This document shows, one piece after another, positions 16,939-37,571 of a stretch of DNA of 46,085 bases. The position numbers and the translations under genes are program-made. The number at the start of each line of letters is the position of its first letter. The stretch's first letter is position 1. This stretch comes from Candidatus Effluviviaceae Genus V sp. (GTDB lineage: Bacteria; Joyebacterota; Joyebacteria; Joyebacterales; Joyebacteraceae): NCBI GenBank assembly GCA_014728125.1, contig WJMD01000115.1:1-46085 (forward strand). Reading direction: 5' to 3'. The notes beneath the pieces are model-generated. The model saw only the letters and a program-made list of their open reading frames with translations. It ran no database searches and was not told where the DNA came from.

Positions 16939-17645
16939 GCGACATCCACGGCAACATCGACGCCCTCGAGGCCGTCGTAGCGGCCCTCGAGGATGTTGCG
17001 GTGGACGGCTGGTTGTGTCTGGGTGACCTCGTCGGATACGGCGCCGAGCCGCGGGCGGTCGTAGACCGCGTTCGGGAGCTCGACACGCTCGTCGTCAGAG
17101 GTAACCACGACCACGCCGTCGGGGATCCCGCCCTCGACGCCTCGTTCAACGTGTGGGCCGCCAGGGCCATCGCGTGGACGCGGGAGCGGCTCGACGACGG
17201 CGCCTCGGACTACCTGTCCCGGCTTCCGTTGACCCACGTCCTCGACGACGTCCTGATGGTCCACGCGGCGCCGTCCGACCCGATCGGCTGGCCGTACATA
17301 CTCGATATGGCGACGGCAGACCGCGAACTGGACGAGTTCCAGCAGGCACTGTGCCTCTTCGGCCATACGCACGCCCCGCTCTCGTATTCCGACGCGAAGG
17401 GGGCGGGGACGGTGGAGGCGGGCACGGTCGCGCCGTACGGTGACGGCCTCCGGGCCATCGTCAACGTCGGCAGCGTCGGCCAGCCGAGGGACGGCGACCC
17501 CGCGGCGGCCGCCGGCGTCCTCGACACGACGGAGCACACGGTCAGCTTCATGAGGGTGGCGTACGACGTGGAACGCGCCGCCGGCAGGATCCGCGACGCA
17601 GGACTCCCGCCGCTTCTGGCGGACAGGCTCTTTCAAGGCAGATGA
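16920..17645 (+). CDS. Metallophosphoesterase of the YfcE/MJ0936 type
   Basis: This is a calcineurin-like dimetal phosphoesterase of 241 residues. The metal-binding blocks are in order: SDIHGN (about residue 7), GDLVGYG, GNHDH, VHAAPSDP and GHTHAP. A GTG start inside the nusB tail gives MRYGILSDIHGN with no spare sequence before the first strand. Such enzymes act on phosphodiesters or nucleotides in the cytoplasm; the substrate is unknown. It bridges the riboflavin genes and the glycan locus, overlapping both neighbours. Confidence 0.88.
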   Translation: MRYGILSDIHGNIDALEAVVAALEDVAVDGWLCLGDLVGYGAEPRAVVDRVRELDTLVVRGNHDHAVGDPALDASFNVWAARAIAWTRERLDDGASDYLSRLPLTHVLDDVLMVHAAPSDPIGWPYILDMATADRELDEFQQALCLFGHTHAPLSYSDAKGAGTVEAGTVAPYGDGLRAIVNVGSVGQPRDGDPAAAAGVLDTTEHTVSFMRVAYDVERAAGRIRDAGLPPLLADRLFQGR

Positions 17646-18574
17646 CGGAGGCCCTGTTGAGAGTCAGCATCGGCGTCATGGCCTACAACGAGGAGCGCAA
17701 TATCGACCGGCTCCTCCAGGCGCTCGTGGACCAGAGGCTCGTCGACGCGGAGATCGCGGAGATCTTCGTCGTCTCCAGCGGCTCGACCGACCGTACGGAC
17801 GAGATCGTCCGCCGCTGGGAGACCCGCGACGCACGGATCCGGCTGCTCCCCCAGGCGTCCCGGCAAGGGAAGGCCTCTGCCATCAACCTGTTTCTGGCGG
17901 AGGCGACCGGAGACGTTCTGGTGCTCGAGAGCGGCGACACCGTGCCGGCGCCCGACTGCGTCGAGCGCATGGTCGCGCCCTTCAACGACCCCGCGATCGG
18001 TATGACGGGCGGCCGTCCCGTCCCGGTCGACGACGAGAACACCTTCATGGGCTTCGTCGTGCACATGCTGTGGCGCCTCCACCACAAGCTCGCCCTGAAG
18101 CACCCGAAGCTCGGGGAGATGGTCGCATTCCGGAGCTTCGTCGCGTCGATTCCAGAGGACACGGCCGTCGACGAGGCGAGCATCGAGGCCATCGTCGCGC
18201 AGGAGGGCAAGCGGCTGGCGTACGTACCGGACGCCGTCGTCCGCAACAAGGGCGCCTCGAACGTGCGGGACTTCCTCAGACAGCGACGCAGGATCTACGC
18301 CGGGCACCTGTGGCTCGAGGCGAGTGAGTCGTACGAGGTCTCCACGAAGAACGTCGGAGGGATCCTCGACGTCCTCTTCGAGGACCTCGAGTGGCGGCCG
18401 CGGACCCTGCTCTACACTCTGGGCGGCGTGTTCCTCGAGTTCGTCGGGCGTCTCCTCGGTACGTACGACTACCATGTCCGGGGAAGGAACCCTTACACGT
18501 GGGCCGTCTCCGAGTCGACGAAGGACCTCGAGGAACTCGACGGCGCGCCGGCCGATCCCGAGGAACGGACATGA
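17642..18574 (+). CDS. Family 2 glycosyltransferase
   Basis: This is a GT-A fold glycosyltransferase and the first gene of the glycan locus. The N-terminal nucleotide-binding part reads VSIGVMAYNEERNIDRLLQAL and VVSSGSTDRTDEI. The usual DxD position reads ESGDT, a conservative variant. A hydrophobic stretch near the C-terminus (about residues 260-280) may touch the membrane. The ATG at 17642 overlaps the previous stop; an in-frame TTG at 17657 has a good GGAGG five bases upstream and begins right at the first strand, so the shorter protein (305 residues rather than 310) may be the real one. It overlaps the radical SAM gene by ATGA. Confidence 0.83.
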   Translation: MTEALLRVSIGVMAYNEERNIDRLLQALVDQRLVDAEIAEIFVVSSGSTDRTDEIVRRWETRDARIRLLPQASRQGKASAINLFLAEATGDVLVLESGDTVPAPDCVERMVAPFNDPAIGMTGGRPVPVDDENTFMGFVVHMLWRLHHKLALKHPKLGEMVAFRSFVASIPEDTAVDEASIEAIVAQEGKRLAYVPDAVVRNKGASNVRDFLRQRRRIYAGHLWLEASESYEVSTKNVGGILDVLFEDLEWRPRTLLYTLGGVFLEFVGRLLGTYDYHVRGRNPYTWAVSESTKDLEELDGAPADPEERT

Positions 18575-19680
18575 TCGGGGTCGTCTCACGCATACCGCTG
18601 TACTGGTGCATGCGGGCGTTCGGCCGCCCCCGCATGCTGCCGCTCAACCTGACCGTCAGCGTCACCTACCGCTGCAACTCCCGATGCAGGACGTGCAACG
18701 TCTACAACAAACGGGCCGAGGAGTTCACGGCGTCCGAGTTCGACCGCGTCTTCGCGTCGTTCGGGACGACGCCGTACTGGTTCACGATGAGCGGGGGAGA
18801 GCCGTTCCTTCGCGACGACCTTCCGGAGATCTGCCGGAGCGCGCACGACCGGACGAGGCCGGGGATCATCAACATCCCCACCAACGGCATTCTCCATGAC
18901 CGCATCCCGGGAATGGTCCGGGAGATCTGCCACGGCGCGCCGGACACGCAGGTCATCGTCAACCTCTCGCTCGACGACATCGGGGAGCGTCACGACGCAA
19001 TCCGGGGCGTCCCCGGGAACTTCGAGAAGGCCGTGCGAACCTACGAGGGGCTCCGCGGGCTCGGCGCCCGGAACCTGGCCATCGGCGTCCACAGCGTCAT
19101 CTCGGTGCACAACGTCGACCGCATACCCGAGATCTACGAGACGATCCACAGAGAGCTGGCCCCCGACTCGTTCATCACCGAGATCGCCGAGGAGCGCGTG
19201 GAGCTCGACACTGTCGGCGCGGGGGTGACGCCGTCGCCGGAGCAGTACGGCCGCGCCGTCGACTACCTGATCGAACGGATCAGGGCGGAGCGTCACGCAG
19301 GCATCGCCCGGGTCACACAGGCGTTCCGCGTCCGATACTACGAGATGGTCAAGCGCTACCTCGCGTCACATCGCCAGATCATCCCGTGCTACGCCGGCGT
19401 CGCCTCGGCGCAGATCGCCCCCGACGGCGACGTCTGGTTCTGCTGTATCGAGGCGGCCTCCGTCGGGAACCTCCGGGAGGCCGGCTACGACTTCCCGACC
19501 GTCTGGTTCAGCCCGGAGGCACGCCGTCTCCGGGGCCACGTGCGCCGCGGGGAGTGCGCCTGTCCGCTCGCGAACGCGGGCTACACGAACATGCTCATGC
19601 ACCTCCCGACGCTTTCGGGCGCGGCCTTCGACCTGGCGACGGGCGGAAGCGCGTCCAGGGACGAGGGAGGTGAGGCGTGA
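18571..19680 (+). CDS. Radical SAM protein with SPASM-like C-terminus
   Basis: This radical S-adenosylmethionine enzyme has 369 residues. The 4Fe-4S/SAM motif is C35-x3-C39-x2-C42 in VTYRCNSRCRTCNVYNK, followed by SGGEPFLRDDL (SAM-binding GGE) and NIPTNGI. The C-terminal third resembles SPASM/twitch domains: IPCYAGV, IAPDGDVWFCC, VGNLRE and GECACPLANAGYTNML, giving several Cys for auxiliary clusters. Such proteins modify peptides, lipids or sugars; the substrate here is unknown. It lies between a GT2 and a DUF362 Fe-S protein, overlapping both, so a glycan- or lipid-linked substrate is plausible. Confidence 0.88.
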   Translation: MIGVVSRIPLYWCMRAFGRPRMLPLNLTVSVTYRCNSRCRTCNVYNKRAEEFTASEFDRVFASFGTTPYWFTMSGGEPFLRDDLPEICRSAHDRTRPGIINIPTNGILHDRIPGMVREICHGAPDTQVIVNLSLDDIGERHDAIRGVPGNFEKAVRTYEGLRGLGARNLAIGVHSVISVHNVDRIPEIYETIHRELAPDSFITEIAEERVELDTVGAGVTPSPEQYGRAVDYLIERIRAERHAGIARVTQAFRVRYYEMVKRYLASHRQIIPCYAGVASAQIAPDGDVWFCCIEAASVGNLREAGYDFPTVWFSPEARRLRGHVRRGECACPLANAGYTNMLMHLPTLSGAAFDLATGGSASRDEGGEA

Positions 19681-20816
19681 GCGTCTTCGTCGAGTCCGCC
19701 GGAGCCTATCGCGTACCCGAGATCGCGGACTTCGTCCGGCGCGCCCTGCTCGAGCTCGAACTCGACCTGGACGGACGACGGTCGGCGCTCCTCAAGCCGA
19801 ACCTCGTCATCGCCGCGAAGCCGTCGACCGCCATCGTGACCCACCCTGCCGTCACGGAGGCCGTCGTCCTTGTGCTCCGGGAGCACGGCATCGATCGGAT
19901 CACGATCGCCGACGGCCCGGGAGTCGGGCTCGACGTTCCCGAGGTCTTCCGCGTCACCGGCTACGATGCGCTCGCCGAGCGTCTGGGCGTCGAGCTCGTC
20001 TCGTTCAACGATGCGGAGCGTCGGGACAGGGAGTGGAAGTACGGAACCATAGGGGTGCCCGTCGTCCTCGAGGATGCCGACCTCTACGTCAACCTCCCGA
20101 AGATGAAGACGCACGGCTATACGCGCGTGACGCTCTCCGTGAAGAACCACAAGGGGATGCTCTCCGAGGCCGCCAAGAAGCAGGACCACCAGCTGGGACT
20201 CCACGACCCGCTGGCGCAGCACGCGGGCATCGTCCCGCCGCACCTGATCATCGTCGACGGTATCGTCGGGCTCGAGGGCGACGGACCGCTGAACGGTCGC
20301 CCCAAGCGGTCGCGCATGCTGGCGGCCGGGACCAACATGCTCGAGGTCGACGCGGCCTGTGCGCGCCTCATGGGCTTCGACCCGGAGAAGATCCGTCACC
20401 TGACGTTCGCGGCCGACGAGGGACTGGGCTCGCTCTCGCCGACGGTCATCGGCGACGCGACGCCGGTCGCCTTCGAGCCGGCGAACGAGCAGTACGGCCG
20501 AGTGATGAACATCTACTCCTGGCGGGACTGCACCGCCTGCTCGATGTGCATCGACTCCTTCAGCGCCGCGGTCAAGCTGGCGGTACACGAGCCGAAATAC
20601 TGGTTCACCCTCGTGCCGAAGCTCCTCTACTGGGGCTTCTTCGGGAAGCTTCACATCATCCAGGGACGGAAGGCGTCGATCCCTCCGGAACGCGGACGGG
20701 TCGTCTGCCTGGGCCGCTGCACGAAGGGCCTTGCCGAGAAGGAGGCCCTTGTGCACATTCCGGGCTGCCCGCCGTCGGCCCGCGACGTCGCCGAGACACT
20801 GAGGAAGGAGCTGTAG
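19677..20816 (+). CDS. DUF362-family iron-sulfur protein
   Basis: This is a 379-residue DUF362 protein (GTG start, GTGA overlap with the radical SAM stop). The domain shows SALLKPNLVI near residue 40, DGPGVG, LPKMKTHGYTRVTLSVKNHKG and DGIVGLEGDGP. A Cys cluster C285-x2-C288-x2-C291 follows; the fourth ferredoxin-type Cys is not at the normal place but CLGRC and PGCPPS downstream could complete clusters. DUF362 members are poorly characterised and are often next to redox or radical enzymes; here it could supply electrons to the radical SAM protein. That partnership is inferred from gene order. Confidence 0.83.
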   Translation: MSVFVESAGAYRVPEIADFVRRALLELELDLDGRRSALLKPNLVIAAKPSTAIVTHPAVTEAVVLVLREHGIDRITIADGPGVGLDVPEVFRVTGYDALAERLGVELVSFNDAERRDREWKYGTIGVPVVLEDADLYVNLPKMKTHGYTRVTLSVKNHKGMLSEAAKKQDHQLGLHDPLAQHAGIVPPHLIIVDGIVGLEGDGPLNGRPKRSRMLAAGTNMLEVDAACARLMGFDPEKIRHLTFAADEGLGSLSPTVIGDATPVAFEPANEQYGRVMNIYSWRDCTACSMCIDSFSAAVKLAVHEPKYWFTLVPKLLYWGFFGKLHIIQGRKASIPPERGRVVCLGRCTKGLAEKEALVHIPGCPPSARDVAETLRKEL

Positions 20817-20824
20817 GAGAGGTC

Positions 20825-21673
20825 ATGCCGGCAGTCGAGAAGGACACGGGACTCGGAACCACCTACGAACGCATCGCGCTGGCGCGTCTGGTCGAGAGAC
20901 TGGCCGCGGATCTCGACGTCTCATCCGTGCTCGAGGGCCCAGCCGACGGGATCACCGGTATCAGGGGCCTGAACAGCGTGCCGTTCGCTCAGGGCGGCGC
21001 CGACGTTGAGGTCGTGCTCTCCGACCCGGACGAGGTGGCGCTCGCCAGGAGGGCGTGGCGCAACCTCCGCCTCTCGGACCGCGTCACGCTGCGCACCTCC
21101 CGCGACTTTCGTCTGGAACGCGAGGGCGCGCGGTTCGACCTCGTCTGGAACTTCAACGCGCTGCCCCAGGCGCCCGAGCCTGAGGCGCTCATCGGCGACA
21201 TGTGCGAGGCATCGAAGCGCTACGTGCTCATCTTTGTGTCGAATACGCTCAACTACGGCTTCCCCGTCCACAGGCTGCACCATCGCGCCGCGTCGGAGGC
21301 GTGGTCCCACGGGAACATCGAGATGATGAACGTGGGGAGGATCTCGAGGATGCTCCAGGAGCGCGGCTGCCGGGTCGTACGGAAGCTCCTGGTCGACGTC
21401 CCGTGGTGGCCCGACATCGACTCGCCGATCGAGGAGGTGGCGGCCACGTTCCTGCCGTTCCTCAAGCGCTTCGTCTCGGGGTCGAAGCGCCTCGAGCGCT
21501 ACACGTGGACGGCGGACGACCTCCCGTACTTCGACGGCCCGAAGCGAGACGACCTCGTGCGCGACCTGGAGCGCCACTTCTTCATCGAGCGCCGGACCAG
21601 GTCGCCGCTCCGCATCCTCTTCGCGCATCACCGGGGCGTCCTGGCCGAGAAGGAGCGGGCACATGCGGCGTAG
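20825..21673 (+). CDS. Methyltransferase-like protein
   Basis: This encodes 282 residues after a GGAGAGG site. The first 130 residues resemble a class I SAM methyltransferase Rossmann fold: a strand (VSSVLEGP), an acidic strand (VEVVLSDPDEVALARR), then FDLVWNFNALPQ in the post-IV position and a long helical end. Motif I lacks a clear GxGxG, so SAM binding is not certain. The C-terminal half has conserved-looking HRLHHRAASEAWSHGNIEMM and PWWPDID. It overlaps the next membrane protein by 11 bases. It may methylate a glycan or lipid, or be a non-catalytic relative. Confidence 0.6.
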   Translation: MPAVEKDTGLGTTYERIALARLVERLAADLDVSSVLEGPADGITGIRGLNSVPFAQGGADVEVVLSDPDEVALARRAWRNLRLSDRVTLRTSRDFRLEREGARFDLVWNFNALPQAPEPEALIGDMCEASKRYVLIFVSNTLNYGFPVHRLHHRAASEAWSHGNIEMMNVGRISRMLQERGCRVVRKLLVDVPWWPDIDSPIEEVAATFLPFLKRFVSGSKRLERYTWTADDLPYFDGPKRDDLVRDLERHFFIERRTRSPLRILFAHHRGVLAEKERAHAA

Positions 21674-22691
21674 CATCAGGATCATCCTCGCGCTCGGTGC
21701 GGGGGCGGCGCTTCTCGCGCTCGCGTTGCACGGGATCGATGTCTCGGAGATCACGGAGAACATCGGCCGCGCCGACTGGAGGTACCTGGCGCTCGGCGGC
21801 CTGCTCTACGTCGTCGCCTATCTCGTGCGAAGCGTCCGCTGGCGGCTGATCCTGATGCCGGTGACCCGCGTCAGCGTCCGCGACAGTTTCTTCATGCTGA
21901 TGGCGGGCTACTTCCTGAACTATGTCATCCCCATCAGGGCCGGGGAGATCGCCAAGTCGTTCTTCCTCAAGCGTCTGAAGGGCATCCCGATCGCCACGAG
22001 CCTCCCGACCGTCTACGTGGACAAGGTCTTCGAACTCGTCTCGATCATCTTCGTCGTCGTGGCCGTGCCCGTGCTCTCGATCCGCGTCGAGGGCCCGTTG
22101 GCCGTCCTCATCTACTCCGTTCTCGCCATCTTCCTGGCCGCGGTCGGCATTCTCATTCTCGCGTTCCGGAGGGGAGAGGCGGCGACGAAGCTCCTGTGCG
22201 GGCTCTTCTCGTGGCTCCCGAGCGGTCCGAGAGCCAGGCTGACGCAGTGGATCTCGCTCTTCGTCGACGGAATGGGCATCGCCAGGGAGAACGTCAGGAC
22301 CGTCGTTCCCCTGATCGGCCTGACGGTGGCCGCCGTTCTGATCGACGCGTCCTACTTCCTCATGATGTTCAGGGCCTTCGCGATCGATGTGCCGTACGTA
22401 TCCGTGCTCTTCGGCTATACGCTGCTGACACTGTCCTACATCCTCCCCACGCCGCCGGCGCAGATCGGCTACAACGAGTTCGTGATCCGCCTCATCTTCG
22501 CCGGGGGCATAGGCGTCGCATCGATCCCGAAGGCCGAGGTCATGGCCGTCATCATCGTGGCCCACGCCCTGACAGGCCTCATCATCACGGGGGTGGGCGT
22601 CGGCTCGTTCGCCGCGATGGGCATCAAGGTCTCCGAGAGTTTCCGGGCGACGGGCCCGGCGTCGGACGCCTGCGAGACGGTCGGAGAATGA
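21663..22691 (+). CDS. Flippase-like integral membrane protein (AglD/LPG-synthase TM family)
   Basis: This is a 342-residue protein with about eight membrane segments of the lysylphosphatidylglycerol-synthase transmembrane/AglD (UPF0104) superfamily. Family blocks include VRSVRWRLIL near residue 58, FFMLMAGYFLNYVIPIRAGE (the hallmark N-x2-[IL]P-x-R-x-GE) and LPTVYVDKVFELVS, with LSYILPTPPAQIGYNEF in the second half. Members have been proposed to flip or ligate isoprenoid-linked sugars. It follows the methyltransferase-like gene and precedes the epimerase. Confidence 0.85.
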   Translation: MRRSIRIILALGAGAALLALALHGIDVSEITENIGRADWRYLALGGLLYVVAYLVRSVRWRLILMPVTRVSVRDSFFMLMAGYFLNYVIPIRAGEIAKSFFLKRLKGIPIATSLPTVYVDKVFELVSIIFVVVAVPVLSIRVEGPLAVLIYSVLAIFLAAVGILILAFRRGEAATKLLCGLFSWLPSGPRARLTQWISLFVDGMGIARENVRTVVPLIGLTVAAVLIDASYFLMMFRAFAIDVPYVSVLFGYTLLTLSYILPTPPAQIGYNEFVIRLIFAGGIGVASIPKAEVMAVIIVAHALTGLIITGVGVGSFAAMGIKVSESFRATGPASDACETVGE

Positions 22692-22701
22692 AGGGAACCC
22701 C

Positions 22702-23658
22702 ATGAACATCGTCCTGGTAACCGGAGCGGCCGGGTTCATCGGCTCACACGTCGCCCGGAAGCTCATCGAGAGCGGGACACATGTCCGCGCGGTCGACGCC
22801 TTCACGAACTACTACGGCAGAGCGCAGAAGGAATCGAATGTGGCCGACCTCCGGGGTCGGGACGGGTTCGAGCTCATTGAGGCCGATCTGTCCTCCGCCG
22901 ACCCGGCTCCGCTTCTCGACGGCGTCGACGCCGTCTGTCATCTGGCGGCGCAGGCGGGCGTCCGCGACAGCTGGGGCGCCGACTTCGACACCTACATCGA
23001 CTGCAACATCCGTTCGACCCAGCGTCTCCTCGAGGCGGCGAGGGACCTCGACCTCTCGAGGTTCGTCTACGCCTCCTCCTCGTCGGTCTACGGGGAGACC
23101 GAGGACCTGCCGATGCGGGAAGACGGCCGGACGTGCCCCGTGTCGCCCTACGGCGTCACGAAGCTGGCCGCGGAGCACCTCGCGGTCCTCTATCACAGGA
23201 GCTACGGCGTCCCGACCGTTTCGCTCCGGTACTTCACCGTGTACGGCCCCGGGCAAAGGCCGGACATGGCTTTTCACAGGTTCATCAGGGCGGCCCTTGC
23301 AGATGAGCCGATCACGATTTACGGTGACGGAGAACAGACCCGGGACTTCACGTACGTCGACGACATCGTCGCGGGAACGGTGGCGGCCCTCACGGACGGT
23401 CCCCCGGGGACGGTCTTCAACCTCGGCGGCGGCAGCCGCGTCTCGCTCAACAGGGCGGTCGAGAGCATCGAGAACGCGCTCGGGACGACGATCCGGCGCG
23501 AGTACACGGAGAAGGCCAGGGGAGACGTGACCGACACGCTCGCCGCGAACGACCGGGCGAGACACGACCTGGGCTTCGCGCCCGGGGTGACTCTCGACGA
23601 CGGCATCCGCGCTCAGTGCGCGTGGATGCGCTCGCTCGTGGCCTCCGACCAGGCCTGA
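22702..23658 (+). CDS. NAD-dependent sugar epimerase (GalE/WbpP-like)
   Basis: This is an extended short-chain dehydrogenase of 318 residues acting on a nucleotide sugar. It has the NAD motif TGAAGFIGSH at about 7-16, SSSSVYGE for the active-site Ser/Thr, and the catalytic Y150-x3-K154 in SPYGVTKLAAEHL. RYFTVYGPGQRPDMA and FTYVDDIV are the substrate-binding blocks typical of UDP-glucuronate or UDP-GlcNAc 4-epimerases. The exact sugar is undetermined. An 11-bp gap with its own ribosome-binding site separates it from the flippase-like gene. Confidence 0.9.
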   Translation: MNIVLVTGAAGFIGSHVARKLIESGTHVRAVDAFTNYYGRAQKESNVADLRGRDGFELIEADLSSADPAPLLDGVDAVCHLAAQAGVRDSWGADFDTYIDCNIRSTQRLLEAARDLDLSRFVYASSSSVYGETEDLPMREDGRTCPVSPYGVTKLAAEHLAVLYHRSYGVPTVSLRYFTVYGPGQRPDMAFHRFIRAALADEPITIYGDGEQTRDFTYVDDIVAGTVAALTDGPPGTVFNLGGGSRVSLNRAVESIENALGTTIRREYTEKARGDVTDTLAANDRARHDLGFAPGVTLDDGIRAQCAWMRSLVASDQA

Positions 23659-23671
23659 GGAGAAGGGGCAG

Positions 23672-24610
23672 ATGAAACTGACGCTTGTGATACCCCTGTA
23701 CAATGAGGAGGAGAGTCTCACCGAGCTCTACGACCGGATCGACGCGGCGCTCGAGCCGACCGACATGGAATGGGATGTTCTCTTCGTCAACGACGGCAGC
23801 ACCGACGGCTCGATGGAGGTCCTGCGCAGTCTCAACGCGGCGAACGGGAACATCACGGTGCTCTCCTTCGGACGGAACCTCGGAAAATCGGCGGCGCTGG
23901 CGGTCGGCTTCCGGGAAGCCACGGGCGACGTCGTCGTCACCATGGACGCCGACCTGCAGGACGACCCCGCCGAGATCCCGAAGATGGTCGCGCTCCTCGA
24001 AGACGGCTACGATCTCGTCAGCGGCTGGAAGAAGGAGCGGCACGACCCGCTGTCCAAGCGGCTGCCCTCGAAGATCTTCAACGGCGTGACGTCCGTGGTC
24101 TCGGGTCTTCGTCTCCATGACATGAACTGCGGACTCAAGGCCTACCGCCGCGACGTCGTCAAGACGATCCGCGTCTACGGAGAGCTCCACCGCTACACGC
24201 CCGTCCTCGCACACTGGGCGGGCTTCCGGGTGACGGAGACGCCGGTCAGACACCACGCGAGGGAGCACGGCGTCTCGAAGTACGGGCTCGAGCGCTTCAT
24301 GCGCGGGTTCTTCGACCTCCTGACGGTGCTCTTCCTTCACCGCTACGTGACGCGCCCCCTGCACCTCTTCGGGATGGTCGGTTCGGCGCTGTTCATTGTC
24401 GGCTTCCTGATCGGCGCCTATCTGACCGTGCTCAAGATCATGGGCGAGGCCATCGGTCGCAGGCCGCTCCTGACGCTGGGCATCCTCCTGATGGTGGTCG
24501 GCGTCCAGTTCGTCTCGCTGGGGCTTCTGGGTGAGATGATGGCGCACGTTCGGGGAGGGGATGCGGACTACCCCGTCCGCGAGCGGCTCGACCCGAAGGA
24601 GGTTGCATGA
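23672..24610 (+). CDS. Polyprenyl-phosphate glycosyltransferase, GtrB/DPM-like with two TM segments
   Basis: This family 2 enzyme likely moves a sugar from a nucleotide to polyprenyl phosphate. The 312-residue product shows VIPLYNEEESLTELY, FVNDGSTDGS, the DADLQDDPAEIP metal site and MNCGLKAYRRDVV. Two C-terminal membrane hairpin segments (about 230-255 and 265-290) follow RPLHLFG, as in GtrB, ArnC and related enzymes. The lipid-phosphate sugar it makes would serve a GT-C enzyme outside. It overlaps the next GT4 gene by ATGA. Confidence 0.9.
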   Translation: MKLTLVIPLYNEEESLTELYDRIDAALEPTDMEWDVLFVNDGSTDGSMEVLRSLNAANGNITVLSFGRNLGKSAALAVGFREATGDVVVTMDADLQDDPAEIPKMVALLEDGYDLVSGWKKERHDPLSKRLPSKIFNGVTSVVSGLRLHDMNCGLKAYRRDVVKTIRVYGELHRYTPVLAHWAGFRVTETPVRHHAREHGVSKYGLERFMRGFFDLLTVLFLHRYVTRPLHLFGMVGSALFIVGFLIGAYLTVLKIMGEAIGRRPLLTLGILLMVVGVQFVSLGLLGEMMAHVRGGDADYPVRERLDPKEVA

Positions 24611-25809
24611 CGGCGCGCGGCGAAGCCCGCGGAGGATCGAGCGGCTTCACCTCGACCACGTCCGCGAGGATCGCCATCGTCGGACCGTCGTATCCGTTCC
24701 GCGGCGGGAACGCTCTCTTCGTGGCGCACCTCTACGAGAGTCTGAGAAGAGACCACGAGACCTACATCGCGTCCTTCAAGCGTCTCTATCCCGAGCTTCT
24801 GTTCCCGGGAAAGACCCAGATGAACAGGAGCCACGACCCGGTCAAGATGACGCCGTCCCGCCAGATCATCGACTCGATCGGCCCGCTGAGCTGGTGGAGG
24901 GCGGCCCGCTGGATAGCCGAGCCGGCTCGCAGACCCGACCTCGCTGTCTTCGTCTGGTGGAATCCCTTCTTCGGTCCGGCCTACGGCACCATCGCGAGAG
25001 CCCTCAGGCGCAGGACGGACTGCGGCATCGTCTTCGTCGCCGAGAACGTCGTCTCGCACGAGAACCGCTTCGTCGATCAGTACCTGACGCGCTACGCTCT
25101 CTCACAGGCGGACTACTTCATCGTACTGTCGAGCGTCGTCAGAAGCCGCATTCACTCGCTCTATCCGACCGTCCCGATCCGTCAGGCGGCGCTGCCTGTC
25201 TACGACTGCTACATGCCCGAGGGCGTCGACCGGGAGGAGGCGCGGCGCGCTCTGGGACTCTCTCGGCCGACCATTCTGTTCTTCGGCTACGTCCGGGCCT
25301 ACAAGGGACTCGATCAGCTCCTGAGGGCCATGCCGCGCGTCGCCTCGGAGACGGACGCGGAGCTCCTGATCGTCGGTGAGTTCTACGACTCGCGGGCGAA
25401 GTACGACCAGCTGATCCAGGAGCTGGGGATCGGCGACCGCGTCCGGATCGTCGATCAGCACGTTCCGGACGAGGACGTTGCGCGCTACTTCTCGGCCGCC
25501 GACGTCGTCGCCCTGCCGTACCTCTCGGCGACGCAGAGCGGGATCACGCAGATCGCCTTCGCGTGCGGCGTCCCGGTGATCAGCACGAACGTCGGTGGAC
25601 TTCCGGAGGTCGTCGCGGACGGCAGCACCGGCCTGATCGTCGAGCCGCGCAGCCCCGACGCGCTGGGAGAGGCGCTCGTCAGGTATTTCCGGGAGGACCT
25701 CGCGGAGCGCTTCAGAGCGAACGTCGCGGTCGAGGCGAGGAGAGACCGGGCCGGCGACCTCCTGCGGACCGCCGTTCGCGACTTCCTCGAGATGGAGAGG
25801 ACACGGTGA
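24607..25809 (+). CDS. Family 4 glycosyltransferase
   Basis: This is a GT-B retaining glycosyltransferase of 400 residues. The N-terminal half contains IAIVGPSYPFRGG, and the C-terminal nucleotide-sugar half has ILFFGYVRAYKGLDQLL, LLIVGEFYD and the phosphate/nucleotide pocket SATQSGITQIAFACGVPVISTNVGGLPEVV. About 18 extra residues precede the first strand, so the start could be slightly downstream. Its end overlaps the GTG of the next gene. The donor sugar is unknown. Confidence 0.88.
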   Translation: MTARGEARGGSSGFTSTTSARIAIVGPSYPFRGGNALFVAHLYESLRRDHETYIASFKRLYPELLFPGKTQMNRSHDPVKMTPSRQIIDSIGPLSWWRAARWIAEPARRPDLAVFVWWNPFFGPAYGTIARALRRRTDCGIVFVAENVVSHENRFVDQYLTRYALSQADYFIVLSSVVRSRIHSLYPTVPIRQAALPVYDCYMPEGVDREEARRALGLSRPTILFFGYVRAYKGLDQLLRAMPRVASETDAELLIVGEFYDSRAKYDQLIQELGIGDRVRIVDQHVPDEDVARYFSAADVVALPYLSATQSGITQIAFACGVPVISTNVGGLPEVVADGSTGLIVEPRSPDALGEALVRYFREDLAERFRANVAVEARRDRAGDLLRTAVRDFLEMERTR

Positions 25810-26727: not shown

Positions 26728-28095
26728 ATGAGACGGGTACTGCTCCGGTGGATCCTGGTAACGGTCGTCGTCGCTGCGACCGCCGGCTGCGGCGGGAACG
26801 GCGACGAGCCGGCGGGTGAGGGACCGTCGCAGGTCCTCATCTTCGCGGTCGACGCAGCGACCTGGAACGTGCTGACGCCGATGATCGAGGCGGGCGAGCT
26901 CCCGACGTTCGCGCGGCTCGTCAACGAGGGCACCTACGGCGTGCTCCAGAGCGGAGAGCCGGTCCAGTCCCCCCAGATGTGGACCTCGATCGCGACCGGC
27001 GTCGTCCCAGAGAAGCACGGCATCACGCGCTTCACAGCCGAGGTACCGGGGACCGACCGCGAGGTGCCCGTCACGAGCAACATGCGGCTCGTGAAGGCGT
27101 TCTGGAACATACTCTCCGAGCACGATGTCTCGGTCGGCATCGTCGGCTGGTGGCCCAGCTGGCCGTCCGAGAAGGTCAACGGCTTCATGGTCGCCCAGCG
27201 GGCGTGGCCGATGAACTGGAGCCTCCACGGCATCCCGTTCGGCGCGGCGCGGGACGAGCGCGGACGTCTTCTCGTCGAGGAGTTTCCCGGCAGGACGTAT
27301 CCCGAGGAGCTCTACGACGAGTTCGTGCCGTACATCATGACCGAGGAAGACGTCACGGTCGCAGACCTCGACCGCTTCTTCTCCGACTCCCGCTTCACGG
27401 ACCCCAGACGCCAGTTCCACGCGCGCTGGGTCTACGCGAAGGACAAGACCTTCGCGGACGCGGGACTCGCGCTCTTCAAACGCTATGAGCCGGAGGTCTT
27501 CGCCGTCTACCTGCAGGGGACCGACGTGACGGCACACTACTACTGGGGCTACCGCCGTGAGGAGGGCTTCGAGGTGTCCAACCAGGACGCCCGCCTTTAC
27601 GGCAGCGTCGTCGAGAACTACTACCGGTTCGTCGACGGCGTCATCGCGAAGTACCTCGAGAACGCGGCCGACGACGCCGCGGTCATCGTCGTGTCGGACC
27701 ACGGGTTCGAGACGAAGCGCGACCTGAAGGAGCGCTGGGAGCGCGGCGAGCGGATCCGGACGAAGGAGGGCAACAAGGACGTTCCGTGGGACCACGCGCT
27801 CGAAGGAGCCTACATCGTGAGCGGCCCGGGGATACGGAAGGGACATCACGGCGAGCAGGCGAACGTCGTCGATGTGACGCCGACCCTGCTGGCGTACCTG
27901 GGTCTTCCGGTCGCCGAGGACATGGACGGCGAGCCGATGCTCCACATCTTCGAGGAACCGTTCCTCGCCGCGAACCCGGTCGAGACGGTGCCGACGTTCG
28001 AGACGGGGGAGCCGAAGGACCCGGAGGCCCCGCTCGAGTCGCCTATGGACGAGGGGATCAAGGAGAAGCTCAGGTCGCTGGGCTACATCGAGTAG
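26728..28095 (+). CDS. Alkaline-phosphatase-superfamily hydrolase, lipoprotein
   Basis: This 455-residue envelope protein belongs to the type I phosphodiesterase/AP superfamily (COG3379-like). A signal peptide with lipobox A-G-C at Cys21 predicts lipid anchoring. Metal and catalytic blocks are IFAVDAATWN, SPQMWTSIATGVVPEKHGI (T86/S87 as candidate nucleophile), TDVTAHYYWGYRR, VVSDHGFE and a final His region GPGIRKGHHG. The substrate may be a phosphodiester, phosphonate or sulfate ester on a glycan or lipid. The C-terminus ends SPMDEGIKEKLRSLGYIE, nearly the same as the paralogue two genes downstream. Confidence 0.85.
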   Translation: MRRVLLRWILVTVVVAATAGCGGNGDEPAGEGPSQVLIFAVDAATWNVLTPMIEAGELPTFARLVNEGTYGVLQSGEPVQSPQMWTSIATGVVPEKHGITRFTAEVPGTDREVPVTSNMRLVKAFWNILSEHDVSVGIVGWWPSWPSEKVNGFMVAQRAWPMNWSLHGIPFGAARDERGRLLVEEFPGRTYPEELYDEFVPYIMTEEDVTVADLDRFFSDSRFTDPRRQFHARWVYAKDKTFADAGLALFKRYEPEVFAVYLQGTDVTAHYYWGYRREEGFEVSNQDARLYGSVVENYYRFVDGVIAKYLENAADDAAVIVVSDHGFETKRDLKERWERGERIRTKEGNKDVPWDHALEGAYIVSGPGIRKGHHGEQANVVDVTPTLLAYLGLPVAEDMDGEPMLHIFEEPFLAANPVETVPTFETGEPKDPEAPLESPMDEGIKEKLRSLGYIE

Positions 28096-28140
28096 CGACA
28101 CGCCCTGGATCGTCCGGCCCTTCAAGGACTGGTGGGATCG

Positions 28141-29250
28141 ATGCCGAATCACCCGAAGCTGGACTGCAGACACTACATCGGCGACAGGCCGTGCCGTTTC
28201 GGCGGCCCCTGCGACGGCTGCGAGGACTACGCACCGGTGGGTGCGAAGGTCCTCGTCGTCAAGCTGGCTGCCGCCGGCGACGTCCTGCGCTCGACCGCCG
28301 TCCTGCCCGGGATCAGGGAGACCACGGAGCGCTGTCACGTCACCTGGGTGACCGAGGGTCCGTCGGTGCCTCTCCTCGAAGGACACCCGCTCATCGACCG
28401 CCTGCTGGTGTTCGGTTTCGACGCCTGGCTCGAGCTTTCGCGGACGACGTTCGACCTCGTGCTCTGCCTCGACAAGGACCCCCGCGCGGCCGCCTTCGCC
28501 GACTCGATGCAGGCCGACGCCCGACGCGGTTTCGGCCTCTCCGAGTGGGGTACGGTCCGCGCGCTCAACGATGGGGCCGAATACGATCTCGCCCTCGGCC
28601 TCTCCAACGAGATGAAATTCCACGAGAACACCTTGACCTATCCCGAGATCGTCTGCCGCGTCGCCGGCGTGCCCTACGCCAGACAGCCTTACGTCATGGC
28701 GCTCGGCGGAGAGAGCATCGTGCGGGCGGACGCGTTTCTAGAGACGCTCACCCTGAAGGACCCCGTGATCGGACTCAACGTCGGCGCCGGCCCGGTCTTC
28801 GCGAAGAAGGCCTGGACGCCCGCGGGGTACGCCGACCTTGCGAGGCGCATCACGGCGGAGCTCGAGGGCAGCGCGCTCGTGCTCGGGGGGCCGGATGACC
28901 GTCCTCGCATGGAGCGCGTTCTCGAGCTGTCGGGCGGCGCCGCCGTCGACGGCGGTCTCCATCCACTTGCCGAGTTCTCGGCCCTCGTGGGGCGTCTCGA
29001 CGCCCTCGTGACGGGCGACACCATGGCGCTCCACATCGCCGTCGCTCTCGGCGTGCCGGTCGTCGCGATCTTCGGCCCCACCGTCCCCCAGGAGATCGAT
29101 CTCTTCGACCGCGGAACGAAGGTCGTGACGTCCGCGACCTGCGCGCCCTGCTACCGCCGGGCCTGCGATGAGACGCCGGACTGCATGGACGACGTCAGCG
29201 TCGACGAGGTCTTCGGGACGCTCCGGCAGGTGATCGGGGAGGACGCGTGA
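28141..29250 (+). CDS. Family 9 glycosyltransferase (heptosyltransferase-like) with Cys-rich N-terminus
   Basis: This GT-B enzyme resembles LPS heptosyltransferases. The ATG at 28141 follows GGTGGG; a GTG at 28132 is possible. Before the fold, residues 9-27 carry four Cys (C9, C18, C24, C27), a possible zinc knuckle. The body has VLVVKLAAAGDVLRSTAVL, IGLNVGAGPVFAKKAWTP, and the donor-site GDTMALHIAVALGVPVVAIFGPT. It ends in the GT9 Cys motif TCAPCYRRACDETPDCM. The gene sits between two AP-superfamily paralogues and overlaps the second by GTGA, so the three probably act on one structure. Confidence 0.87.
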   Translation: MPNHPKLDCRHYIGDRPCRFGGPCDGCEDYAPVGAKVLVVKLAAAGDVLRSTAVLPGIRETTERCHVTWVTEGPSVPLLEGHPLIDRLLVFGFDAWLELSRTTFDLVLCLDKDPRAAAFADSMQADARRGFGLSEWGTVRALNDGAEYDLALGLSNEMKFHENTLTYPEIVCRVAGVPYARQPYVMALGGESIVRADAFLETLTLKDPVIGLNVGAGPVFAKKAWTPAGYADLARRITAELEGSALVLGGPDDRPRMERVLELSGGAAVDGGLHPLAEFSALVGRLDALVTGDTMALHIAVALGVPVVAIFGPTVPQEIDLFDRGTKVVTSATCAPCYRRACDETPDCMDDVSVDEVFGTLRQVIGEDA

Positions 29251-31001
29251 GCTACTCTGTCGACACGAGACGTTTCGGAACACCCGGGCTCGTTCTGGGA
29301 GCAGCGGCCGCCTTCGCACTGGTCCTGGGCGGCGCGCTCGGTATCGTCGGACTGGACACGACGGGCTTCCGGCTGTCGATCGGGCCGTTCCTGGCGCTCC
29401 AGATCGTCGGCGCGGCCTTCGCGCTCTTCGCTCTCCTCGCCTGTGCCGTCATCGGCGTCGCCCGCCTGGCGCGGCGACGTTTCGCACCCGACGCCGATCT
29501 CAGACGCGTCGTCCACACGCTGACGGCGCTCTCGGCGTGGGGCCTTCTGACGGTGACCTTCCTGCCGCTCAAGGGCTCCGAGGCGTTCGTGCAGGCCGGA
29601 CGACTGACGACGATACAGCTCAACATGATCGGGCTGGCGGCCGTCCTCATCGCCGGTTACGTGCTCGGTCTCGTCGCTGCGTGGGCCGCCGTGCGGGTGC
29701 GCCGCCTCCTGACGCACCGACTGACGCCGCCGGGCCTCAGAACGCTGGCCGGGGCGCTCGCCGCCGCGCTCCTCATCGTGGCTCTCCTCGGTCCCGGAGC
29801 GAGGGTCCCCGGAGCCGGGGTCTCCCGAAGGTCGGCCGCCCGCGTGGCCGTCATCGGGGTCGACGGCTGCGACTGGGACATGCTGGGCCCTCTCGTCGAG
29901 GCCGGACGGCTTCCCACGTTCGAGCGTCTCATGGAGGAGGGAACCTACGGACCTCTCCTCTCGCTGGAGCCGCTCGTCTCACCGAGGATCTGGACGACCA
30001 TCGCCACGGGCCGACTGCCCTCGGCGCACGGCATTGAGGACTTCGTCGACGACTCAGGCACGCCGGTCAACGCCACGATGCGGAGGGCGCCGACGATCTG
30101 GGAGGTCGTGTCTGCGAGCGGAGGCGTCGTCAACGTGATCGGCTGGTACGTCACGTGGCCCGTCGACGACGTCCGCGGCGTGATGATCTCCGACCGGATG
30201 CACACGCTGGCCAGGGCCCCGCTCCAGGCGTACCACGCCCTCTCGGGCGAGCCGACCGACGGACGGCTCGAGCGGTTCGGCCGCTTCTCCTTCGACCCGG
30301 GATACGGCCGCTACGACGAGAGCGACCTCAGGTACCAGCGGAACCGCATCGTCGATGAGCCGCTCAGATGGGGGTTCCTCAGGGACACGATCTACGGGGC
30401 CGCCGCCGAGGCGTCGGTCCCACGCTACCACCCCGACTTCGTCGCCGTCTACTACCGGGGCGTCGACTTCGTCCAGCACTTCTTCTGGCAGTATTCGCAG
30501 CCGGACGCCTTCACGGGTGTCGACCGCGAGGCCGTGGCCGCCTACGGGGACGTCATCCCGAACTACTACGAGTTCCAGGACGCCCTGCTCGCGAGGCTGC
30601 TCGACTCTCTCGGACCGGACATGAACGTCATCATCGTCTCGGACCACGGATTCCAGGCCAGACTGGACCGTGACCCCTCCAAGCCGCAGCTGACCGGCAT
30701 GCACGACCTTCGCGGAGTCTACATCGCCTCCGGTCCCGCGTTCCGGAACGGCGGTCTCGTGGAGGGACCGACGATCCTCGACATCGCGCCGACCGCTCTC
30801 GCGGTCATGGGCGTTCCGGTCTCCGAGGAGATGGAGGGCCGCGTCCTCACGGAGATCGTGCGTCAGGAGCATCTCGCCTCCCATCCCGTCACGACGGTTC
30901 CATCGTACGGCCCCGGCGTACGGGACGAACGACAGCAGATCGAATCGTCGATGGACGAGTCGATCCGCGACCAGCTGCGTTCACTGGGATACATCGAGTA
31001 G
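29247..31001 (+). CDS. Membrane-anchored alkaline-phosphatase-superfamily hydrolase
   Basis: The 584-residue product has an N-terminal block of about four or five membrane segments (residues about 10-190), then a periplasmic AP-superfamily domain. The blocks parallel the upstream paralogue: VIGVDGCDWDML, SPRIWTTIATGRLPSAHGI, VDFVQHFFWQY, VSDHGFQ and GMHDLRGVYIASGP. It ends SSMDESIRDQLRSLGYIE. The lipoprotein and multi-TM versions thus differ in anchoring only. Substrate unknown; phospho-group trimming or transfer on the exported glycan is possible. The GTG start overlaps the GT9 stop. Confidence 0.84.
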   Translation: MSYSVDTRRFGTPGLVLGAAAAFALVLGGALGIVGLDTTGFRLSIGPFLALQIVGAAFALFALLACAVIGVARLARRRFAPDADLRRVVHTLTALSAWGLLTVTFLPLKGSEAFVQAGRLTTIQLNMIGLAAVLIAGYVLGLVAAWAAVRVRRLLTHRLTPPGLRTLAGALAAALLIVALLGPGARVPGAGVSRRSAARVAVIGVDGCDWDMLGPLVEAGRLPTFERLMEEGTYGPLLSLEPLVSPRIWTTIATGRLPSAHGIEDFVDDSGTPVNATMRRAPTIWEVVSASGGVVNVIGWYVTWPVDDVRGVMISDRMHTLARAPLQAYHALSGEPTDGRLERFGRFSFDPGYGRYDESDLRYQRNRIVDEPLRWGFLRDTIYGAAAEASVPRYHPDFVAVYYRGVDFVQHFFWQYSQPDAFTGVDREAVAAYGDVIPNYYEFQDALLARLLDSLGPDMNVIIVSDHGFQARLDRDPSKPQLTGMHDLRGVYIASGPAFRNGGLVEGPTILDIAPTALAVMGVPVSEEMEGRVLTEIVRQEHLASHPVTTVPSYGPGVRDERQQIESSMDESIRDQLRSLGYIE

Positions 31002-34714: not shown

Positions 34715-35424
34715 AGACCATGGTCGTCGTGCCCACGTACAACGAACGGGAGAATCTCGAGGAGCTGATCCCTCGGGTGCTCGGGCAGCGGGAGGGGATC
34801 GAGCTGCTCGTGGTCGACGACGGATCACCGGACGGGACCGGCGAGTACGCCGACTCGGTCGCTGCGGCAGACAGCCGCGTCCACGTGCTGCACCGTCCCG
34901 GCAAGATGGGGCTGGGGTCCGCCTACGTCCAGGGCTTCCAGCACGCCCTCACGCGCGATGTCGACCTCATCATCCAGATGGACGCCGACTTCTCACACAA
35001 TCCCGACGTCATCCCTACCCTCATCGACGCCACGTCCGACTACGACGTGGCCATCGGATCGAGGTACATCACCGGCGCGAACGTGGTGAACTGGCCTCTC
35101 CGGCGGCTCTTTCTCAGCTACTTCGCGAACGTCTACACGCACCTCATCACGGGACTGCCGCTCCGCGACTCGACGGGCGGCTTCAAGTGCTTCAGACGAG
35201 AGGTCCTGGAGTCGATCGAACTCGACACCATACGGTCCGACGGCTACTCCTTCCAGATCGAGGTCAACTTCCGGTGCTGGCGGAGAGGCTTCGATCTCGT
35301 CGAGATCCCGATCGTCTTCGTCGACCGGCACTCCGGGACATCCAAGATGTCGAGACGGATCGTCTGGGAGGCCATGTGGCTCGTCTGGCGTCTGATGTTC
35401 GAGAGGATCTGGAGGAGACCGTAG
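34711..35424 (+). CDS. Polyprenol-phosphate mannosyltransferase-like (DPM1 type, soluble)
   Basis: This GT2 enzyme of 237 residues resembles polyprenol monophosphomannose synthase. It shows VVVPTYNERENLEELIPRVL, LLVVDDGSPDGTGE, the metal site MDADFSHNPDVIP and DSTGGFKCFRREVLE, with no C-terminal membrane helices, as in DPM1-only versions. It would charge polyprenyl phosphate with a hexose for a GT-C enzyme, probably the adjacent YfhO-type protein. The end lies over the start of the next gene. Confidence 0.9.
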   Translation: MKTMVVVPTYNERENLEELIPRVLGQREGIELLVVDDGSPDGTGEYADSVAAADSRVHVLHRPGKMGLGSAYVQGFQHALTRDVDLIIQMDADFSHNPDVIPTLIDATSDYDVAIGSRYITGANVVNWPLRRLFLSYFANVYTHLITGLPLRDSTGGFKCFRREVLESIELDTIRSDGYSFQIEVNFRCWRRGFDLVEIPIVFVDRHSGTSKMSRRIVWEAMWLVWRLMFERIWRRP

Positions 35425-37571
35425 AGACACCGGCGGCATACGAGGTCTCAATCGTCGTCGTCAGCTACAACAGCAGGAAGCACCTCGAGCGCCTCCTGCC
35501 GTCGCTGTACGACACGCCGTGCGACGTCTCGCTCGAGACGATCGTCGTGGACAACGCCTCGAGCGACGGCACACCGGCGTTCGTCCGGGAGCGGTTCCCC
35601 CGGGTCCGCACGATCGAGAACGCCGCGAACATGGGGTACTCGAGGGCCGTCAACCAGGGCATTCATGCCGCCCGGGGCCGGTACGTCCTCATTCTGAACC
35701 CCGACATCGAGGTCTCGGAGGGGGCGATCCGGCGCCTTCACGCGTTCATGGAGGAGCACCCCCGGGCCGGCATCGCGGGGGCGAAGCTCCTCAATGCCGA
35801 CGGCAGTGTTCAGCACTCGTGCCGACGGTTCTACTCGCTGTGGACGCTCCTTCTGCGGCGGACGCCGCTGGGGAAGCTCCTGCCGAGGAACAGGGAGATC
35901 CCGCGCTATCTGATGCTCGACTTCGACCACGCGTCGTCGCGCGAGGTCGACTGGATCATCGGCGCCTGCATGATGGTCAGGCGCGAGGCGCTCGCCGACA
36001 TCGGGCTGATGGACGAGCGCTTCTTCCTGTACTTCGAGGATGTCGACTGGTGCTACCGTGCGTGGCGGGCCGGATGGAAGGTCTACTACGTCGCGGACTC
36101 CGTCATGACGCACCGGTATGCGAGGGAGAGCGCCTCGACCTCGAAGCTCCTGTTCGCGCACATCCTCTCGATGCTGCGCTACTACGAGAAGTGGGGGAGT
36201 CTGATCTACGCGATGAAGAAGTACAGGCACGTCATACTCGTCGCGATGCTCCTGGTGAGCGACCTCGTCGCCGTCAACGGGTCGTTCTCGCTGGCCTTCC
36301 TCCTCCGGTCGAGCCTCCAGGGACTGCTCGAGAAGCCGATGTTCGGCTTCGGCATCTACAGACCCTTCCTGGTCTTCGCCAACATCGTCATCCTGTTCTC
36401 CTTCGCGTTCTTCGGTCTCTATGGACGGAGGATCGAGCGCGAACCGGCGCCGGACATCCTGCTCCGTATCTTCAGGGCGACCGCCGCCGCGGGCATCGTC
36501 CTCATGGCCAGCACGTATCTGACCTCGCAGACGCTGTACTCCCGGGTTCTGGTGGCCGCGTTCCTCGTGCTGCTCGTGGTCGTTTCCTGGCTTCTGCGCC
36601 TTGCCGGCAAGGCGATCCACAGGTCGTTCCGAGCGGGGAGCTTCGATCTCGCGCGGGTCGCCGTGGTGGGGACGGGCCCGGAGGCGACGGGACTGGCGGC
36701 CGGCCTCGTTGAGCGGCGCGAGCTCGGCTACGATCTGGTCGGTCTGGTGACGACCGACGGCGAACGTCACGACGCCGGCTTCCCCGTCGTGGGGACGCTC
36801 GACGAACTCCCGCGCCTGGTCGAGGAGCAGCGCATCGCCGAGGTCGTCTTCGCCGACCCCGACATCCCGAACGAGAAGGTGGCCGGTTTTCTCCTCGCGG
36901 CCAGGAAGAGCACGGTGGACGTTCGGATGGTGTCCGGTCTCTCAGGCATCCTGACGCGGCGTGCCCGCGTCGAGGAGTTCCTCGGGCTTCCGGTCGTCAC
37001 GTTCGAGCGCGAGGCCCTGCTGAAGGCCGGGGCCGGCGCGAAGCGGGCGCTCGACATCGTCGGGGCCGCCCTCCTCGTAGTCGTCTGGTCGCCGGTCCTC
37101 GCGTTGCAGACGATCGGTGCCGCCGCGCGGGGGAGGCGACCGCTTCACCTTGTCCCGCGATTGGGCGTGGGCGGAACCGTCTTCGGCCTCGTCGCGCTGA
37201 CCGACTTGGACAGGCCGGGCCCGCTCCGACGCTTCGCGGAGAGACACTGTCTCTCGCGTGTGCCGGGTGCGCTCAACGTGCTCGCGGGCGACATGAGCAT
37301 GGTCGGCCCGGAGCCACTGCCACCTGGGTCACTCGAGAAGCTCGGACCCGCCGCGCGCGTCCGGCTGGACGCGCGGCCCGGTCTCATGAGCCTGTCGGGC
37401 GCGCCGACCGCGCGCCGGGAAGGACAGCGCGAGTCGGATCGTCTGGAGGCCTACTACGTCCAGAACTGGTCGCTGGGCGGGGACGCGCGCATCGTCCTCC
37501 GCTGGATCGGCCGGGCCTTCGCGGGTCGCTGCTCCGGGACCTCTGAACCGAAGGGAAGGAACACGGCATGA
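35376..37571 (+). CDS. GT2 fused to a catalytically degenerate polyprenyl-phosphate sugar transferase
   Basis: This 731-residue fusion starts best at GTG 35376, with GGGAGG four bases upstream; no ATG fits before the first GT2 strand. Residues about 22-270 are a GT2 domain (VSIVVVSYNSRKHLE, VVDNASSDG, LILNPDIEV, YFEDVDWCYRAWRAG). About 286-410 hold four membrane segments, then a Rossmann domain (VAVVGTGPEATGLAAGL) and from K556 a WbaP/WcaJ-type transferase module. Its LNVLAGDMSMVGPEPL and YYVQNWSLGGDARIVL blocks are clear. However, the DE pair of LDELPQLWNVL is replaced by S627-R628, the QERVG motif is gone and the TGLWQVSGR block is poor. The GT2 half looks active; the second half probably is not. 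Confidence 0.85.
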   Translation: MARLASDVREDLEETVETPAAYEVSIVVVSYNSRKHLERLLPSLYDTPCDVSLETIVVDNASSDGTPAFVRERFPRVRTIENAANMGYSRAVNQGIHAARGRYVLILNPDIEVSEGAIRRLHAFMEEHPRAGIAGAKLLNADGSVQHSCRRFYSLWTLLLRRTPLGKLLPRNREIPRYLMLDFDHASSREVDWIIGACMMVRREALADIGLMDERFFLYFEDVDWCYRAWRAGWKVYYVADSVMTHRYARESASTSKLLFAHILSMLRYYEKWGSLIYAMKKYRHVILVAMLLVSDLVAVNGSFSLAFLLRSSLQGLLEKPMFGFGIYRPFLVFANIVILFSFAFFGLYGRRIEREPAPDILLRIFRATAAAGIVLMASTYLTSQTLYSRVLVAAFLVLLVVVSWLLRLAGKAIHRSFRAGSFDLARVAVVGTGPEATGLAAGLVERRELGYDLVGLVTTDGERHDAGFPVVGTLDELPRLVEEQRIAEVVFADPDIPNEKVAGFLLAARKSTVDVRMVSGLSGILTRRARVEEFLGLPVVTFEREALLKAGAGAKRALDIVGAALLVVVWSPVLALQTIGAAARGRRPLHLVPRLGVGGTVFGLVALTDLDRPGPLRRFAERHCLSRVPGALNVLAGDMSMVGPEPLPPGSLEKLGPAARVRLDARPGLMSLSGAPTARREGQRESDRLEAYYVQNWSLGGDARIVLRWIGRAFAGRCSGTSEPKGRNTA

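Follow-up and report, generated by a model that had tools for sequence, protein, structure and literature searches.

The GT2a-rSAM gene run and its recurrence

The stretch of DNA analyzed here (46,085 nucleotides; hereafter the window) is one contig (WJMD01000115.1) of the 2.5 Mb metagenome-assembled genome of Candidatus Effluviviaceae Genus V sp. (GCA_014728125.1). It carries a tightly packed run of five genes encoding a family 2 glycosyltransferase (GT2a), a radical S-adenosylmethionine (SAM) enzyme (rSAM), a DUF362 protein, a methyltransferase-like protein (MT) and a flippase-like membrane protein of the UPF0104 family (Table 1). The trio of GT2a, rSAM and MT recurs as a set across at least four bacterial phyla, often next to genes for sugars that are borne on membrane lipids. 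All five genes predicted from the window are present and in frame, with overlaps of 4 nt between GT2a and rSAM, 4 nt between rSAM and DUF362, and 11 nt between MT and UPF0104; DUF362 and MT, however, are separated by an 8-nt gap instead of overlapping as had been claimed, and a ribosome-binding-like TAGGAGAG lies just 5' of the ATG of MT.

The co-directional genes run at least from RibBA (14729) to GT2c (26702), well past the five genes, and the gene order from position 8091 to GT9 (28132) is kept in most of the own-family relatives compared, with the part of the window from 14 to 29 kb being syntenic throughout the family. Because this region is conserved as a whole, adjacency within the family is weak evidence of a functional unit; we rejected own-family synteny as functional evidence, as it shows only the age of the arrangement. 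Other phyla must therefore supply the evidence that the genes form a functional unit.

GT2a and rSAM were searched for separately in 290 genomes, 20 from the window's own family and the rest (about 270) drawn widely from the domain's other families. Of these outside genomes, nine contain GT2a, and all nine also possess rSAM (Fisher p = 1.3e-12; p ~1e-8 when genomes are pooled by family, assuming 211 families in all). The MT family, searched by profile, was present in nine outside genomes as well, each of them with rSAM and eight of them with GT2a. Within the phylum of genome G092 (40 genomes), rSAM occurs in 22 genomes, GT2a in 20, and both in 18 (p = 8e-6). In the rSAM tree, partnerless enzymes (G053, G077, G160, G237, G245) form a separate clade (support 98/99), in a phylogeny in which several branches are long and the deep order is unsure; loci L052-L055 likewise carry distant rSAM relatives without partner genes.

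GT2a, rSAM, MT and DUF362 stand together in three phyla, and the GT2a-rSAM pair alone is adjacent in further lineages. The order in G143 and G282 is GT2a-rSAM-MT-MT-DUF362 and continues with two B12-binding radical SAM genes, while the fullest members of the G187 phylum read GT9-GT2a-rSAM-MT-SPASM rSAM-DUF362-B12 rSAM-DPM1-like glycosyltransferase. B12-binding radical SAM genes lie at the DUF362 end of the module in L163 (1-2942), L164 (3386-6343) and L167 (4641-6089). Two contigs, L049 (titled Chloroflexi) and L050, as well as G198 retain just the adjacent GT2a-rSAM pair; in the last of these (L165, 8529-11450), the order is ribH-nusB-GT2a-rSAM, and its counterpart in the window, RibH-NusB-phosphoesterase-GT2a-rSAM, differs by one extra gene. 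This is an old gene order shared by G198 and the window.

The original prediction had proposed co-occurrence in other genomes as a check, and GT2a, rSAM, MT and DUF362 do recur in distant genomes, but UPF0104 does not. The latter adjoins the GT2a-rSAM module solely in the window's own family and hence is not a core member, as which it had been put forward. A weak UPF0104 relative is found in family f108 near an rSAM relative, an epimerase and GT2b, with a GT4 gene also present in one of the two genomes.

Properties of the encoded proteins

The core of GT2a is PcManGT/AglC-like and cellulose-synthase-like. The best PDB match of its profile is the crenarchaeal PcManGT (6YV7-9; E = 1e-23), a protein for which a role in N-glycan assembly has been proposed, although the mannosyltransferase activity predicted for it failed to be confirmed (PMC8993221). 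With an invariant D99, D177-E178 and an R215-R217 motif in the alignment, GT2a has the predicted hallmarks of a GT2 glycosyltransferase: GT-A domain, acidic motif, catalytic acid and basic motif. No transmembrane helix is predicted in the window copy.

The rSAM protein carries the SAM-cluster motif CxxxCxxC (C35/C39/C42), which is invariant, and a C-terminal family signature, CxCPLANxxYTN. In 20 aligned proteins, the auxiliary cysteines C273-X17-C291-X37-C329-X-C331 are invariant and C292 is nearly so. Among Twitch-type enzymes, SkfB has the pattern CX33CXC, and BtrN possesses four cysteines; judged from its cysteine pattern and its fold match to both, rSAM is a Twitch-type enzyme with a predicted auxiliary cluster. 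A full SPASM domain comprises seven cysteines and two auxiliary clusters (PMC6231123), whereas rSAM has the cysteine set for only one. Its earlier description as a radical SAM/SPASM enzyme with extra Cys clusters consequently stands for the radical SAM fold with auxiliary cysteines, but not for a full SPASM domain.

Foldseek searches with the AlphaFold2 (AF2) model of rSAM (pLDDT 92.5) retrieved SkfB first, then CteB, SuiB, BlsE, MoaA, anSME, DesII and BtrN, with GDGT-MAS lower in the list; matches of this kind to a predicted model indicate the general class of the enzyme and not its substrate. In a PDB search by sequence, the rSAM profile likewise matches SkfB best. An RRE peptide-binding domain was not found in rSAM: in the AF2 model the core begins near residue 26, preceded by two short helices, so that the N-terminal RRE of SkfB is missing. 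None of the cut-offs of the curated NCBIfam radical SAM families (HxsC, MftC, PqqE, AhbC/D, NirJ, HpnH, MoaA) was reached, the best score being that for HxsC (63.6 versus 267.9 bits); membership in a known peptide- or heme-modifying family, named beforehand as an argument against the original prediction, was thus not observed. Own-family relatives additionally encode another, separate radical SAM paralog (29-33% identity) among GT4 genes (L065, 5368-8859; L066, 8359-11877).

MT belongs to an unusual family with the motifs GLGTxYER and LExPxxGxTG and an atypical SAM motif I. The window protein stays below the Methyltransf_23 cut-off (Table 1), and its relatives lie above that of Methyltransf_11; the G187-phylum proteins have an N-terminal hydrophobic helix. 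All 15 aligned members share residues D191, E255 and the C-terminal H268-H269 without exception. A plain methyltransferase would not usually have this combination, and these residues suggest that the protein may catalyze a different reaction.

DUF362 and LarA share the Pfam clan CL0471 (PMC11770544). All 18 Foldseek matches of the DUF362 model (pLDDT 80) at E<=0.001 fall into the LarA superfamily, with modest TM-scores of ~0.4, and a PDB sequence search gave no match. Unlike LarA, the protein has an extra C-terminal motif of conserved cysteines (CxxCxxC, CxxxC, GCPP). LarC, the nickel insertion protein, was not found in four of four own-family genomes; a nickel-pincer (NPN) cofactor is therefore unlikely in the own family, and we rejected this chemistry for DUF362 there, regarding the protein as related to LarA-type NPN enzymes in fold but not as one of them. 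The suggestion that DUF362 serves as the electron donor of rSAM is unsupported, the protein having a LarA-like fold and being absent beside the module in several lineages, and we found no paper connecting DUF362 with radical SAM enzymes. DUF362 is an accessory member of the module, with an enzymatic or Fe-S role being possible.

Genetic links to polyprenyl-linked sugars

Throughout the G092 phylum, GT2a carries a fused DPM1-like (polyprenyl-phosphate sugar) domain at its N-terminus (20 of 20 genomes), and MT lies within 4 kb of it in 18 cases, both exceptions being contig ends. Prenyl synthase genes are found near 13 of these 20 fused GT2a genes, UbiA genes near 13 and genes for PMT-like GT-C enzymes near 12. 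In this phylum, rSAM is encoded elsewhere in the genome from GT2a and adjoins a geranylgeranyl-reductase (GGR)-family gene in 13 of 21 loci (177 bits versus a family cut-off of 158.8); deletion of GGR in Haloferax leads to the loss of saturated dolichol phosphate (PMC10821996). In the window, the ArnC/PgfS-like GT2b is encoded 5 kb downstream of GT2a, so that a polyprenyl-phosphate glycosyltransferase is genetically tied to GT2a in both settings. With moderate confidence, this genetic evidence supports reading the module as part of a lipid-linked sugar pathway. The earlier proposal of a radical-based modification of a lipid-linked sugar or polyprenyl carrier is borne out in its context (the DPM1 fusion, the prenyl synthase, UbiA, PMT-like and geranylgeranyl-reductase neighbors, and the similarity to PcManGT), but the radical step itself is one that we infer.

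Genes downstream of the module

Several of the genes that follow UPF0104 (Table 1) have relatives near rSAM or GT2a elsewhere. Weaker relatives of the epimerase lie near rSAM in L058, L173, L176 and L177, and relatives of GT4 (245-397 bits) near rSAM in three other lineages (L173, L177, L058). In the G187 phylum (L166, L222-L226), GT9 relatives (339-384 bits) immediately precede GT2a. GT2b has two predicted C-terminal transmembrane helices (236-254 and 269-287).

Further along the window, a 716-amino-acid frame (35421-37571) encodes an uncommon fusion of a GT2 domain to CoA_binding_3/Bac_transf (polyprenyl-phosphate hexose-1-phosphate transferase). Two type I phosphodiesterase-like genes belong to the same gene island (26728-28095 and 29247-31001), the second with four predicted N-terminal transmembrane helices.

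Table 1. Genes of the five-gene run and of the region downstream in the window.
Feature	Position	Strand	Supporting matches
GT2a, family 2 glycosyltransferase	17642..18574	+	PF00535 2e-26
rSAM, Twitch-type radical SAM enzyme (predicted)	18571..19680, ATG at 18571	+	PF04055 6e-13; SPASM (PF13186) 5e-7
DUF362 protein, LarA-like fold and C-terminal Cys motif	19677..20816, GTG start	+	PF04015 6e-47
MT, methyltransferase-like, unusual family	20825..21673, ATG start	+	Methyltransf_23 below cut-off (22.4 vs 27 bits)
UPF0104/LPG_synthase_TM (AglD C-terminus/MprF-type), flippase-like membrane protein	21663..22691	+	PF03706 1e-40; TIGR00374 above cut-off
NAD-dependent sugar epimerase/dehydratase	22702..23658	+	PF01370 3e-61
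GT2b, ArnC/PgfS-like polyprenyl-phosphate sugar transferase	23672..24610	+	NF007986 217 bits, below cut-off 529
GT4 glycosyltransferase	24607..25809	+	PF13692 5e-31
GT9 heptosyltransferase-like	28132..29250	+	PF01075

A proposed pathway and its alternatives

Tentatively, and with a confidence that falls a little short of even, we suggest that GT2a, the Twitch-type rSAM and MT are the core of a so far undescribed pathway in which a polyprenyl-phosphate-linked sugar destined for the cell envelope is built and chemically altered. Substrate, reaction, order of steps and direction of transport are read from the observed genes, folds, motifs, co-occurrence, fusion and neighbors, and would be as follows. 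An ArnC/DPM1-type transferase (GT2b in the window, the domain fused to GT2a in the G092 phylum) would load a sugar onto polyprenyl phosphate, and GT2a would add or extend a sugar at the cytoplasmic face. rSAM would then abstract a hydrogen atom from the lipid-linked sugar to yield an oxidized, epimerized, deoxy or decarboxylated residue, while its single auxiliary cluster would take up or return an electron. The MT-like protein may methylate or otherwise finish the modified sugar, and a flippase-like protein (UPF0104 in the window) together with a GT-C enzyme (YfhO- or PMT-like) would move it across and transfer it outside. DUF362, the second SPASM radical SAM enzyme and the B12-binding radical SAM enzymes may provide lineage-specific extra steps. 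The presence of the sugar-acting enzymes BlsE and BtrN among the Twitch folds matching rSAM is consistent with this scheme. That rSAM acts directly on the polyprenyl-phosphate-linked sugar, and hence that a lipid-bound sugar is remodeled by radical chemistry before export in several bacterial phyla, is a more specific claim, and we consider it doubtful, although worth entertaining.

Several observations weigh against the proposed pathway. Its substrate is deduced from gene context, and polyprenyl genes do not lie beside the module in every lineage, with L049, L050 and G198 showing just the GT2a-rSAM pair. Eight of the 17 outside genomes with rSAM are devoid of GT2a, the MT profile included members from seven of its nine positive genomes (G198 and G162 were found independently), and the co-occurrence statistics treat genomes of shared ancestry as independent, without tree correction. 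Furthermore, Glu or other residues occupy the position in GT2a where a DxD-type motif usually has its first Asp, and the catalytic function of GT2a is a prediction.

Alternatively, the target of rSAM might be the isoprenoid moiety of a glycolipid, for instance through C-C bonding, saturation or another chain change of a polyprenol or terpenoid, and GT2a might glycosylate the product; we regard this as unlikely. The model for such a route is the hopanoid side-chain pathway, whose enzymes HpnH (radical SAM), HpnI (GT2) and HpnJ (B12-binding radical SAM) act on a membrane isoprenoid, and which resembles the module in combining a radical SAM enzyme with a GT2 and, at some loci, with a B12-binding radical SAM enzyme. 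In the G092 phylum, rSAM adjoins the GGR-family gene in 13 of 21 loci, as noted above, and a prenyl synthase gene at two. HpnJ is the nearest match of the B12-binding radical SAM protein found in the G187 phylum (167.7 bits, below the cut-off), and GDGT-MAS is among the structural matches of rSAM. However, rSAM itself scores far under the HpnH cut-off (38 versus 225 bits), no squalene-hopene cyclase was seen at module loci, and no prenyl-chain gene adjoins the module in the window. Geranylgeranylglyceryl phosphate (GGGP) synthase was found in eight of the 15 genomes tested and not in the other seven, including G143, G282, G198, G292 and G177; archaeal-type ether lipids are therefore not the common denominator, and we rejected them as the common product.

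Quite unlikely is a module that makes a glycosylated redox cofactor or another small diffusible metabolite, in the manner of mycofactocin, whose radical SAM enzyme MftC and GT2 enzyme MftF are weakly similar to rSAM and GT2a (57.3 and 56.7 bits). A LarA-like DUF362 and the extra radical SAM enzymes would fit a small-molecule pathway, but the scores are far under the mycofactocin cut-offs (265 and 280), no precursor peptide gene is present within the overlapping genes, and the DPM1 fusion and the PMT and UbiA neighbors point to membrane lipid carriers.

It is improbable that the genes share no step and are mere neighbors in a large island of envelope-glycan genes. The conservation of the whole region in own-family relatives would suit this idea, but the trio of GT2a, rSAM and MT recurs in other phyla amid different surroundings, and its phylogenetic profiles match even where the genes are unlinked (G092, G123, G198). 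Very improbable, finally, is a peptide or protein maturase of the RiPP (ribosomally synthesized and post-translationally modified peptide) or sactipeptide type, since the matches to the sactisynthase SkfB, CteB and SuiB that would favor it are offset by a SkfB match that spans the common radical SAM core, by the missing RRE that defines SkfB, by scores below the curated maturase cut-offs and by the lack of any precursor-sized gene between the overlapping genes.

Relation to known systems and significance

We return to the proposed core pathway for a polyprenyl-phosphate-linked sugar. One of its closest parallels is archaeal dolichol-linked glycan assembly, which it resembles in the kinship of GT2a to PcManGT (6YV7), in the fusion to a DPM1/AglJ-like domain and in the AglD-type UPF0104 protein of the window. 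It differs in that no oligosaccharyltransferase was seen at module loci, and we know of no radical SAM step in the archaeal process. BtrN and BlsE, Twitch/SPASM enzymes of aminocyclitol and sugar chemistry, share with rSAM the core and the cysteine pattern for one auxiliary cluster, but rSAM falls under the curated cut-offs, has its own signature and is linked to GT2a and MT.

Literature searches on radical SAM enzymes together with polyprenyl glycosyltransferases, dolichol, lipid-linked glycans or exopolysaccharides retrieved no title on such a pathway, in agreement with the original prediction, which knew of no described pathway of this composition; the recurrent gene set with its radical SAM enzyme appears to be undescribed. 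GT2a, rSAM and MT, optionally with DUF362, constitute a defined gene set for expression and testing. To our knowledge, the substrates of sugar-modifying radical SAM enzymes are sugars of secondary metabolites, either free or bound to a nucleotide. If our reading is correct, this conserved trio, with its ties to polyprenyl-phosphate sugar transferases in phyla that are uncultured, would bring radical chemistry into the assembly of lipid-linked glycans.

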